Assembly (NCBI RefSeq): GCF_003061515.1
Contig: NZ_CP028924.1
Coordinates: 2,728,001-2,792,000, forward strand
DNA: 64,000 bases
From: Colwellia sp. Arc7-D
GTDB lineage: Bacteria > Pseudomonadota > Gammaproteobacteria > Enterobacterales > Alteromonadaceae
Direction: 5' to 3'
Position 1 is the stretch's first letter, and the number at the start of each line of letters is the position of its first letter. Positions 25,494-29,101 of this stretch are shown in pieces. Position numbers and translations under genes: made by a program. The notes under the pieces are model-generated. The model was not told the DNA's origin. It ran no database searches and worked only from the letters and a program-made list of their open reading frames with translations.

Positions 25494-25813
25494 CACTCAT
25501 CCTTTTAGTTCTAATTTAGGGTGAAGTTTATCATGAAGATACTCAAATGATCAGACGCTTCAGGGCTAAAATTTAAATAACAACAATTTGTGATACCCAT
25601 GATTTCAACTAAACTTATGGGTTGTAACTACGGTTTCATCACTATAGATGAAATTACGACATCTAATTTACAAGAACATAGATAGTATTAGAAAAACAGA
25701 AATACGTTTAATTGCAGTATTCAATTGTATTAAGGGGTATGGAGTAATGTTTATCTGTTTTTATGAGTTTGTTCAAAAATATAATACAAACAAATAACTC
25801 AAGGGACATTATC
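25494..25813. promoter_or_regulatory. Divergent upstream region before the MbnH/MbnP operon
   Basis: A 320-base gap between the leftward panE-like gene and the rightward lipoprotein gene, so promoters face both ways. A dyad TTTCATC-ACTATA-GATGAAA lies at 25634-25653 and could be an operator. No known copper-responsive box was recognised. Confidence 0.4.
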
Positions 25814-27187
25814 ATGAGCAAAGTTATATTAATTGCCTTAGCTATAGTCTTATTCAGTGGTTGTGGCGATGCCAGCAAAACATCGAGTACTGCAACAATT
25901 GATAAAACTGAAACGAGTAGTAAAGCGACTAAAGAACAAACAACTACACAAAATGATGCTATTAATATTGAAGAAACTCAAGCAATGGTATTACTTAGTG
26001 GTCTGCCAACCTTAGGTACTTCCGATAGCATCGCTATTATTGATATGGATCCCGACTCGGCCAATTTTGGCAATATACTTTATGACTACCCACTCCCCAA
26101 ACTTGATGCACCTATGCACCACCTTTATTACAGCCCTAACGGACGTTTGTATGCCACGGGGCTGGGCTCTCAATGTAGCTTAGCTGAAATTGACTTGGTC
26201 AGAAACGCAAAAGCTGAGCCGATAATTAGTAATTTTGAATGCTTAAACACCAACGGACAAAATGTTGGAGAAGATATTATGTGGCATAACGTCAATGGTG
26301 AGCTAACGATGTTCGTTACCTTTATGGGCGGCTCTGATTTAACTCAAATTGACGCAGGTACGGTCGGCGTATTCAATGCCCAAACGAATGAAGTCATTAA
26401 AATTATTGAAGCAAGAAAGTCTCAAGTAGAAGCAGGTCAGCCTTATATCATGTTCCCACATGGCATTTCAGCTTATGGGGATAGAATGGTAGTCACATCT
26501 TCTACTCACCCAGCCATTGCCACAGAAGTTGGTAATTCCATAACCATTATCGATTTAAATACTTTAAAACCAATCGAAACTATTGTTATTGAAGATGCCA
26601 AGCCTGTGGGCTTCCCTTCATCGCCTGTCGAAGTGCTTTTTGTTCGTCCCAGTATTGTCGAAGGGGTGGAGCCAGCTATTTTGGTTAATACTTTATTCGG
26701 TTTTGAGACTTGGAAAGTGCCTTATAACGAGAAAACTAAAACGTTTAATACGCCAGAAAAGTTATATGACGGAGCCACAGCAGGTACAGCAGTACCGTTA
26801 GAGTTTTATGGTAATGAAGATGAATTATTTATCAGTCATGGCGTGCCCGGTATAGTTAAACGCTACGATTTAAAACAGTTACCCAATTTAGTATCTTCAG
26901 GCGAAGATATAAAGGCAGAAAGCGGTGCGCATCACATGATATTTTATAAAACCGCAGCCGGTCGCAAGCTCATTGCCGTACAAAACAATTTATTAAATTT
27001 AGGTGACGCTAAAGACAATGACCCCACCGACATAGATTTTCTGGTGAAACTAAATCACCACTCGGTCACCGTACATGATCTTGTTACGGGCGAGCGATTG
27101 GGCGAAATAAACTTCAAAGAAAAGTACAAAAAAGGTATCGATAATATTGAAGCATTATTTGGCTCAGGCTTTACGCATCATCATTAA
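25814..27187 (+). CDS. Lipoprotein with SBP56/methanethiol-oxidase-like beta-propeller
   Basis: A 457-residue lipoprotein: signal peptide with lipobox LFSGC (C17), a Thr/Ser-rich linker to ~50, then a beta-propeller. The propeller start DSIAIIDMDPDSANFG...PLPKLDAPMHHL resembles the opening of selenium-binding protein 56/methanethiol oxidase (ATVDVDP..., PMP...LHHF), including the His pair at 102-103. The CxxC cysteines of true SBP56 are absent. The end, GSGFTHHH, could bind metal. ATG at 25814 follows AAGGGA; a 17-residue upstream extension is unlikely. It starts an operon with MbnH- and MbnP-like genes. Methanethiol oxidase is copper-dependent and its gene is linked elsewhere to mauG-type genes, so a copper-related periplasmic enzyme or metal carrier is plausible. 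Confidence 0.6.
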   Translation: MSKVILIALAIVLFSGCGDASKTSSTATIDKTETSSKATKEQTTTQNDAINIEETQAMVLLSGLPTLGTSDSIAIIDMDPDSANFGNILYDYPLPKLDAPMHHLYYSPNGRLYATGLGSQCSLAEIDLVRNAKAEPIISNFECLNTNGQNVGEDIMWHNVNGELTMFVTFMGGSDLTQIDAGTVGVFNAQTNEVIKIIEARKSQVEAGQPYIMFPHGISAYGDRMVVTSSTHPAIATEVGNSITIIDLNTLKPIETIVIEDAKPVGFPSSPVEVLFVRPSIVEGVEPAILVNTLFGFETWKVPYNEKTKTFNTPEKLYDGATAGTAVPLEFYGNEDELFISHGVPGIVKRYDLKQLPNLVSSGEDIKAESGAHHMIFYKTAAGRKLIAVQNNLLNLGDAKDNDPTDIDFLVKLNHHSVTVHDLVTGERLGEINFKEKYKKGIDNIEALFGSGFTHHH

Positions 27188-27192
27188 TTGTC

Positions 27193-28317
27193 ATGAAAAT
27201 CACCGCAATAGTTGTCGCCATCGCTTTTCTATTTATAGCGGCAACTATTTACAACTTACAAAATAAAAAGCCGACCACTCACCTTGTCGAATTCACGGCA
27301 CCTTTTATTTTTGGCCGTTTTACCGTGCCAGAAAGTAATCCTTTAACCCAAGAATCAGTACTACTTGGCAGAAGGCTTTTTTATGATCCAATATTGTCTA
27401 GCAACAAGAAAGTGTCTTGCGCGACCTGCCATAAGCAAGCACTTGCCTTTACTGACGGTTTAAAAACATCCGTAGGCGTGTCAGGAACTACTCTTGCTTT
27501 CAACTCTATGAGCTTAGTGAATTTAATGTGGGGACCCAAGCATTTTTTCTGGGATGGTCGTGCTTCATCTCTTGAAGAACAAGCAATTATTCCCATTACA
27601 CACCATGATGAAATGGCGTGTAATATCGAAACACTGATCGTTGATTTAAATAATGATGAGACCTACAAAAAGCTATTTAAACAAGCTTTTGGAAATATAA
27701 GTGCACAAAATATAGCGAAAGCGCTAGCAAGCTTTCAGCGAACGTTGATTTCAGCTAATTCACGATACGACCAATATTTACGTGGCGAAATATCTCTAAC
27801 CGCCATAGAAGAACAAGGTCGTAAGCTTTTTATGGCCCATCCTGATACTAAAGTGGTATTACGTGGGGGAAATTGCATTGATTGTCATAGCCAATTTCTC
27901 ACCAGCGGCTTTGGCACTATGTTTGATGGCTTTAGCAATAATGGCTTAGATAATGATCAAACATTACAACCTGGCTTATTTACGTTAACGCAAAATGAAG
28001 CGCATCGAGGCTTATTCAAAGCCCCCACATTACGCAATATAGCGGTTACATCTCCATATATGCATGATGGCCGTTTTGCTACTTTGCATGAGGTTTTAGC
28101 GCATTATAATGGCGGCATTAAGCGCAGTAAAACGCTCAGCCCATTAATTATTGAAGCAGATAATATTCCAAAAACACAAAACGATCATATTAGCTTAAAC
28201 CTCAATGATGATGAAGTAACCGCCATTATTGCATTTTTACATACGTTAACTGATGAAGAATTCTTAGCTAACCGTGCTTTTTCAAACCCTTTTATCGCCG
28301 AGAATAGTGATGACTAA
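27193..28317 (+). CDS. MbnH/MauG-like di-haem cytochrome c peroxidase family protein
   Basis: A 374-residue membrane-anchored or exported protein (hydrophobic residues ~4-20). Two haem c sites are seen: C76-A-T-C79-H80 and C228-I-D-C231-H232. FFWDGRASSLEEQA and SPYMHDGRF (~287-295) are hallmarks of the di-haem peroxidase/MauG family. MbnH converts a tryptophan of its partner MbnP to kynurenine, creating a copper site. The partner-like gene follows with an 8-base overlap, which makes the MbnH role more likely than a simple peroxidase. The gene starts five bases after the lipoprotein gene. Confidence 0.8.
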   Translation: MKITAIVVAIAFLFIAATIYNLQNKKPTTHLVEFTAPFIFGRFTVPESNPLTQESVLLGRRLFYDPILSSNKKVSCATCHKQALAFTDGLKTSVGVSGTTLAFNSMSLVNLMWGPKHFFWDGRASSLEEQAIIPITHHDEMACNIETLIVDLNNDETYKKLFKQAFGNISAQNIAKALASFQRTLISANSRYDQYLRGEISLTAIEEQGRKLFMAHPDTKVVLRGGNCIDCHSQFLTSGFGTMFDGFSNNGLDNDQTLQPGLFTLTQNEAHRGLFKAPTLRNIAVTSPYMHDGRFATLHEVLAHYNGGIKRSKTLSPLIIEADNIPKTQNDHISLNLNDDEVTAIIAFLHTLTDEEFLANRAFSNPFIAENSDD

Positions 28318-29101
28318 ATCTAACAACAGCAAAATTAATAAGAGCAAAGTGTTTTTTAGCCTATTAATGCTAGCACTTGTATTAGTGGTGATTTCAGTTT
28401 GGCTTCGCCCTTCTCCACAAGACTTAACTTTGCGCTTTCACCCCTTTGTTGGCAATAAACCTTTGGTGCTGAACACTCAAAGCTATAAAAACCCCGGTGG
28501 TAATGGCGAATTTTCAATCAGAGACTTTCAGTTATTCATTAGTAATATTCGCCTAAGCTTTCCGGCTAAAAGCCTTACGGAACAAGAAAGCTATCATCTT
28601 GTTAGATTTGACGGGAATAAGACTTTCGACCAAATTGTTATCCCAAAAATAGAAATTAGTAACCTTAAACAATTAACATTTGGTGTTGGTATAGACCCAA
28701 AAGCAAATGGCTCACTTATGTTTTCAGGTGATCTAGACCCAAACAGTAGAATGGCCTGGAACTGGCAAGTCGGTTATAAATTTTTGTTATTAGAAGGTAC
28801 GTTAACAATAGATAACAGCCAACTTCCATTGGTCTACCATATTGGCTTCGACGAAAGTTATACCGAGCTCAATTTTGACATACCTAATAAAATCATGACA
28901 ACAAAGGGGGTTATTAACTTTAAAGTTGATCTGCTGCGTTTATTTCAAAAACCCCATCCCGCAAGTAAAGAGTTAATAAAAATACAGTCACCAATAAGTG
29001 TTGAATACATTGATATGTCTGAAATGCCGCATGTAAAATTTTATCCCAAAGATGTAAAAACACTTGCCGAAGGCTTTCATGATTTTATTAGTCTTATGTA
29101 A
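28310..29101 (+). CDS. MbnP-like copper-binding protein
   Basis: A 263-residue protein with an N-terminal hydrophobic anchor (~14-31) and an all-beta periplasmic domain. The MbnP family pattern is visible: LRFHPFVGNKPL, FSIRDFQLFISNIRL, LTFGVGIDP, then GDLDPNSRMAWNWQVGYKFLLLEG (W150 and W152; cited in part), and YHIGFDES. In characterised MbnP a tryptophan is oxidised to kynurenine by MbnH and helps bind Cu(I). The ATG lies inside the end of the MbnH-like gene. No methanobactin precursor or synthesis genes are in the window, so the system may handle copper directly. Confidence 0.75.
   Translation: MTKSNNSKINKSKVFFSLLMLALVLVVISVWLRPSPQDLTLRFHPFVGNKPLVLNTQSYKNPGGNGEFSIRDFQLFISNIRLSFPAKSLTEQESYHLVRFDGNKTFDQIVIPKIEISNLKQLTFGVGIDPKANGSLMFSGDLDPNSRMAWNWQVGYKFLLLEGTLTIDNSQLPLVYHIGFDESYTELNFDIPNKIMTTKGVINFKVDLLRLFQKPHPASKELIKIQSPISVEYIDMSEMPHVKFYPKDVKTLAEGFHDFISLM

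Follow-up and report, generated by a model that had tools for sequence, protein, structure and literature searches.

In the methanethiol oxidase operon, mtoX adjoins SCO1/SenC and mauG genes, sometimes fused (PMC5739008, PMC6548844), and the hosts named for this SBP56, SCO1 and MauG layout include Hyphomicrobium VS and Ruegeria pomeroyi (PMC5739008). A different gene set, the MbnP-MbnH pair, has been described in the vicinity of genes for copper uptake (PMC3621798, PMC9426467) and has been placed among 'mysterious partners' (PMC3621798). Such pairs occur far beyond methanobactin producers, and no client has been shown for them. Here we describe a locus of Colwellia sp. Arc7-D in which genes for a propeller lipoprotein, an MbnH-type diheme enzyme and an MbnP-type protein follow one another on the plus strand, at positions 25814-29101 of the window, which is the whole analysed stretch of 64,000 nucleotides (contig NZ_CP028924.1, positions 2,728,001 to 2,792,000). 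We found no title or abstract describing such a trio, in a search for which subscription papers were mostly out of reach.

Our best explanation, held tentatively and at somewhat less than even confidence, is that the trio is an envelope copper-enzyme unit in which a propeller enzyme would be served by the kynurenine-copper carrier MbnP, itself matured by MbnH, in parallel to mtoX-SCO1-mauG.

Conservation of the three-gene unit

A scan of genome contigs gave 45 loci with a propeller of this type, and all three genes stand in the same order and on the same strand in 41 of them, more often than chance would allow. The conservation on which the initial annotation depended is therefore confirmed, as is its description of a three-gene unit without methanobactin genes, MbnB scoring above its cut-off in 0 of 47 genomes (weak matches occur in 39 of the 47, the best reaching 73.5 bits vs 325). 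The remaining loci are one in which propeller and MbnH are followed by the contig end (L018), one whose propeller is cut at a contig end, with matching MbnH and MbnP genes opening another contig of the same assembly (L038), one with a propeller cut in the same way and neither MbnH nor MbnP found in its assembly (L042), and a true orphan (L025). The last lies on an intact contig of a Paracoccaceae metagenome-assembled genome (MAG), ends in an AHH tail, adjoins phage terminase-like genes and lacks MbnP as well as any MbnH match over 46 bits.

G134 and G487 are two additional genomes with the same trio. The 45 loci come from Alpha- and Gammaproteobacteria and from a single Gemmatimonadales MAG, and the flanking genes vary from lineage to lineage; no other gene family was common to the trio neighbourhoods beyond related lineages, and neither a TonB receptor nor a copper transporter was found conserved near the trio. 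At the genome level, where the counts include the two added genomes and the L007 genome stands outside them, PF20243 is present in 43 of 46 genomes with a trio propeller. MbnP occurs in 27 of the 247 genomes of the window's order, and the trio propeller in only 2 of those 27, which suggests that the propeller depends on MbnPH and not the reverse.

Nine Ruegeria loci (L029, L030, L032, L033, L034, L036, L037, L043 and L045) have a sulfopyruvate decarboxylase beta gene on the same strand, 0.25-7 kb upstream. TIGR03846 is over its cut-off in L032, and in three loci no more than 255 bp separate the gene from the start of the propeller match; in eight of these Ruegeria loci a HisD-family gene is located 3.5-7.7 kb upstream of the propeller. 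This proximity to organosulfonate genes concerns 9 of the 45 loci and one genus only, and it raises a possible link of the trio to marine sulfur cycling.

The propeller and its candidate ligand ring

The window propeller, which has 819 relatives, is modelled by AlphaFold as a seven-bladed propeller (predicted local distance difference test score 78.4, predicted template modelling score 0.79). The resemblance to methanethiol oxidase that had been claimed for it is found in an SBP56-like N-terminal stretch with a His-His pair, but it is remote, the SBP56 family (PF05694) scoring 16.6 bits vs a gathering cut-off of 34. Of the 23 trio propellers that were aligned, 19 reach SBP56 at E<=0.01, the lowest E value being 1.6e-4, and none of the 23 reaches any other Pfam family at that level, YncE-like PF21783 included. 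When the propeller profile was compared with PDB sequences, the SBP56 structure 2ece came first (E 0.013, over one 41-residue stretch ending in His-His), followed by one F-box protein (E 0.86). Besides the window and the trio of G487, the profile reached three other proteins among 274 genomes of the class: a distant relative and two true SBP56 proteins (E 9.9e-6 and 1.9e-4), the latter both inside SBP56 matches. It is the one N-terminal stretch bearing the His-His pair that singles out SBP56, and by sequence comparison the trio propeller may at best be termed a remote SBP56 relative.

A joint alignment of 34 rows (9 trio, 3 distant and 22 SBP56 sequences) brings out a set of conserved histidines and acidic residues, listed in the table; blade 1 alone is anchored by a strong local alignment, so that the other residue correspondences between trio and SBP56 are provisional. 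The candidate ring residues lie in or just before strands 101-106, 150-160, 217-221, 270-277, 326-333, 372-379 and 417-422 of the model (DSSP assignment), one per blade. Residues lining the axis of a propeller sit at such inner-strand positions.

Three of the four histidines of the methanethiol oxidase set (Hyphomicrobium His89, 90, 140 and 412; numbering from PMC5739008, fitted to the alignment by motif) are aligned with H102, H103 and H416, and His140 corresponds to D154. The copper pocket of SELENBP1 is given as H137, H140, D189 and E252 in PMC10362175. This HxxH, Asp and Glu set appears to be kept only in part by the trio propeller, in which only the Glu is aligned (E273) and the Asp falls on P215/H216. 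The absence of CxxC noted in the initial annotation means little, because a Cys5,8Ser mutant of human SELENBP1 retained activity (PMC10362175); the C-terminal His cluster reported with it is real and nearly invariant.

Distant propellers of 392-400 amino acids (L051, 867-2526; L053, 932-2526; also L052 and L136) occur without MbnPH and share the Glu-Asp, Pro-His-Gly and second His-His pattern. A small, divergently placed cupredoxin-like gene adjoins the propeller in L051 and L053, with a weak PF07732 match in L051. Two more SBP56-like propellers, of another lineage, are found in a Gemmatimonadota assembly (L159, 4731-6212; L160, 4020-5531), one of them with HH and a Pro-His C-terminus, and with no MbnPH in the stretch.

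The MbnH and MbnP partners

The MbnH-type protein carries a bacterial cytochrome c peroxidase/MauG domain (PF03150, 193 bits) with two CxxCH motifs and has MbnP as its neighbour. Its best NCBIfam match is TIGR04039 at 273.2 bits, below the cut-off of 362.85, and its best solved relative is 6e1c (E 6.6e-47). The MbnP-type protein passes Pfam PF20243 (127.6 bits vs a cut-off of 27); its best NCBIfam match, TIGR04052, stays at 35 bits, below the cut-off of 140, and is reached at E<=0.001 by 27 of 27 trio MbnP. The modelled fold of the window MbnP matches solved MbnP (7l6g) only. The predicted tryptophan site is present with W150 and W152 numbered as first proposed, and its MAWNW is identical in 7l6g; the Met and His that go with this WxW site we take to be its copper ligands. 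The window MbnP has no cysteine, several being found in canonical MbnP rows, and the four-Cys motif in the name of 7l6g is unmatched.

Both partners belong to lineages of their own. Quick maximum-likelihood trees cut off trio MbnH and trio MbnP each by one branch with a Shimodaira-Hasegawa-like approximate likelihood ratio support of 100. Of the trio rows from the loci, these trees include 27 of 42 for MbnP and 27 of 43 for MbnH, to which L110 and L135 were added; L049 and L110 are one and the same gene, which belongs to a trio. A diheme tree that includes SBP56-linked domains and 22 of the 43 trio MbnH rows falls into three clean groups (support: trio 99, pairs 98, SBP56-linked 100), the mean path from the trio being 4.71 to the pairs and 5.42 to the SBP56-linked domains, over at most 12 rows each. 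Gene order also differs, being MbnH then MbnP in the trio and MbnP then MbnH in all 19 propeller-free pairs in which both genes were found. These come from 26 propeller-free MbnP places, of which L113 and L129 (no MbnP by the trio profiles), L126 (no MbnH, contig end) and L131-L134 (neither gene by the trio profiles) were set aside. The last four, from one genus of the window's family, have PF20243 matches and no MbnH or trio-type MbnP profile match nearby, and possibly represent MbnP without MbnH.

Mean identity over 42 loci is 69% for the propeller, 64% for MbnH and 44% for MbnP, and the propeller stays at 59-69% across Alpha- and Gammaproteobacteria; being the most conserved of the three, it fits the expectation for the working part. 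The pairwise distances of the three proteins over the same 42 loci agree (Pearson 0.88-0.91, Spearman 0.62-0.67, given without a housekeeping baseline), a type of correlation that shared descent alone also produces.

In 18 of 20 bacterial SBP56 regions, drawn from the weaker-scoring SBP56 group, there is a diheme gene matching the trio MbnH profile, and 13 of the 18 have a frame of 630-850 amino acids, the identity of whose extra N-terminal part as SCO1 is taken from PMC5739008 and PMC6548844. No MbnP match was found in any of the 20. Together with the published mtoX-SCO1-mauG operon, these regions indicate that the trio repeats this layout, MbnP standing where SCO1 is found in the operon. The third partner had been put forward as possibly defining a new system; the arrangement is not of a wholly new kind, being a swap inside the operon layout known from PMC5739008.

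Close packing of the genes had also been pointed out, and an overlap exists between MbnH and MbnP (8 bp) but not between propeller and MbnH, which are 5 bp apart. A second in-frame ATG for the propeller gene is found at 25763, 17 codons upstream of 25814, and an inverted repeat, TTTGTT...AACAAA, at window 25768-25794 directly before the propeller start, is kept in L003-L005 and could be an operator or chance. The trio is flanked on one side by a ketopantoate reductase gene on the opposite strand and on the other by a Pfam-less gene and then a sugar-type ATP-binding cassette transporter. About 0.8 Mb from the trio the genome carries another MbnP-MbnH pair, this one without a propeller, and nowhere in the genome does an SBP56 score over cut-off. 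Among named relatives, Colwellia sp. BRX10-3 is closest (propeller identity 94%).

Table. Genes, motifs and conserved residues of the trio, in window coordinates.
Feature	Position	Strand	Remarks
Propeller lipoprotein gene	25814..27187	+	open reading frame; 457 aa from ATG at 25814
Lipobox cysteine C17 (L-F-S-G-C)	25862..25864	+	Cys in 23/23 rows with a letter there, 46 rows in total
H102-H103, SBP56 His-His motif, blade 1	26117..26122	+	45/45 trio propellers; His-His in 34/34 joint-alignment rows
E153-D154, Pro-His in SBP56	26270..26275	+	45/45; His at D154 column in 14/14 and 8/8 SBP56 rows
H216, adjoins SBP56 Asp column	26459..26461	+	45/45
E273, aligned with SBP56 Glu	26630..26632	+	45/45; Glu in 21/22 SBP56 rows
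E330, SBP56 Asp two columns off	26801..26803	+	45/45
H373-H374, second His-His	26930..26935	+	45/45; Asn/Gln-Met in SBP56 rows
H416, aligned with C-terminal His of methanethiol oxidase	27059..27061	+	43/44; His in 22/22 SBP56 rows
C-terminal H455-H457	27176..27184	+	43, 44 and 44 of 45
MbnH-type diheme enzyme gene	27193..28317	+	374 aa
First haem motif CATCH, residues 76-80	27418..27432	+	read in MbnH sequence
Second haem motif CIDCH, residues 228-232	27874..27888	+	read in MbnH sequence
MbnP-type gene	28310..29101	+	263 aa; cysteine-free
M148-A-W150-N-W152, predicted copper/kynurenine site	28751..28765	+	M148, W150, W152 invariant in 27 trio MbnP
H177, candidate copper histidine	28838..28840	+	invariant in trio and canonical MbnP rows

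Interpretation and comparison with known systems

In the copper-enzyme unit that we tentatively prefer, the work of the enzyme would fall to the propeller, which is lipid-anchored here and would hold copper on its axis in a His- and acid-rich ring. MbnH would oxidise W150, the first Trp of the MbnP MAWNW, to kynurenine, and MbnP would then bind Cu(I) with M148 and H177, Kyn150 lying nearby, and pass it to the propeller, taking the place that SCO1 has in the published mtoX-SCO1-mauG operon. We count for this proposal the observed order in 41 of 45 loci, the reversed MbnH-MbnP order, the separate clades, the MbnP fold with its MAWNW, SBP56 as the sole Pfam family reached, the diheme gene in 18 of 20 SBP56 regions, and the position of H102, H103, E153, D154, H216, E273, E330, H373 and H374, all invariant, at or before inner strands. 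In a profile control YncE-like propellers score as high as SBP56; profile comparison does not separate the two for the trio propeller, and the relation to SBP56 by profile search, on which the initial annotation would have stood or fallen, is thus seen but weak and partly unspecific. Because of the SBP56 likeness and the nine Ruegeria loci near sulfopyruvate decarboxylase beta, the substrate would most likely be a small reduced sulfur compound. It is also conceivable, if quite unlikely, that the propeller stands for a new class of copper oxidases, in which the axial site would be His-rich and possibly polynuclear and would obtain its copper from a dedicated kynurenine-copper chaperone. Behind this idea is the count of histidines, six aligned in the ring plus an HHH tail vs four in methanethiol oxidase, and, if it were true, MbnPH pairs elsewhere would be general maturases of such client enzymes.

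The propeller could instead be a divergent methanethiol or other thiol oxidase carrying out the same reaction as SBP56, to which the N-terminal His-His stretch, the aligned Glu273 and His416, the diheme partner as in mtoX clusters and the Ruegeria decarboxylase genes all point. We consider this rather unlikely, since the surroundings of two of the four proposed copper histidines differ (at D154 for His140, and at P215/H216 for the SELENBP1 Asp), the sulfonate genes are confined to one genus, and 12 of 46 trio genomes also have a full SBP56 over cut-off, so that no plain replacement took place there. A copper-binding envelope protein for acquisition or storage, trading copper with MbnP and having no catalysis, would agree with the lipoprotein character and His tail of part of the family and with the known location of MbnPH pairs near copper uptake genes. 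The identity kept between Alpha- and Gammaproteobacteria is more than one would expect of a passive binder, the lipobox is not seen in every family member and a conserved TonB receptor or copper transporter is missing nearby, all of which makes this role unlikely.

MbnH might also modify the propeller itself, for example at W157 or W300 (each 45 of 45 trio propellers), with MbnP as an accessory, and a MauG-made Trp cofactor has been proposed for methanethiol oxidase (PMC5739008). This seems very improbable to us, given that the MAWNW site is complete in trio MbnP and that the W157 column does not hold Trp in the SBP56 rows of the joint alignment. That three independent genes were inherited together by chance, for which the orphan L025 is the sole support, is hardly credible and is already contradicted by the trio's persistence over varied flanks, its own clades and its reversed gene order.

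The trio propeller is thus a concrete candidate client for an MbnP-MbnH pair; it sits in culturable marine bacteria, in almost all loci next to MbnPH genes of a lineage particular to it, and offers a way to test the purpose of the pair. The comparison further suggests that SCO1 and MbnP, copper carriers with no relation to each other, were recruited into one propeller-plus-diheme layout.

Among the known systems, MopE/CorA (PMC3912023) resembles the trio in its diheme MauG-like partner and in a Trp whose conversion to kynurenine close to Cu(I) is expected, but it is of another protein family with another ligand set and no propeller. YncE-like propellers (PF21783) share the seven-bladed fold and equal SBP56 in profile similarity, although Pfam reaches PF21783 for 0 of 23 trio propellers at E<=0.01. 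Methanethiol oxidase has in common with the trio propeller the His-His pair, one Glu and a late His; the trio has Asp for one proposed copper His, extra histidines and a score below the SBP56 cut-off. In the mtoX-SCO1/SenC-mauG operon, too, a propeller gene is grouped with genes for a diheme protein of the MauG family and for a copper protein, but the copper partner of the trio is MbnP and not SCO1, and in the tree the diheme enzyme of the trio falls on the side of MbnH. The MbnPH pair (7l6g, 6e1c) shares the diheme MbnH, the MbnP fold and an MbnP with MxWxW and His, whereas the trio stands apart in its lack of mbn biosynthesis genes, its MbnH-MbnP order, its cysteine-free MbnP, its own clades and its obligatory propeller partner.
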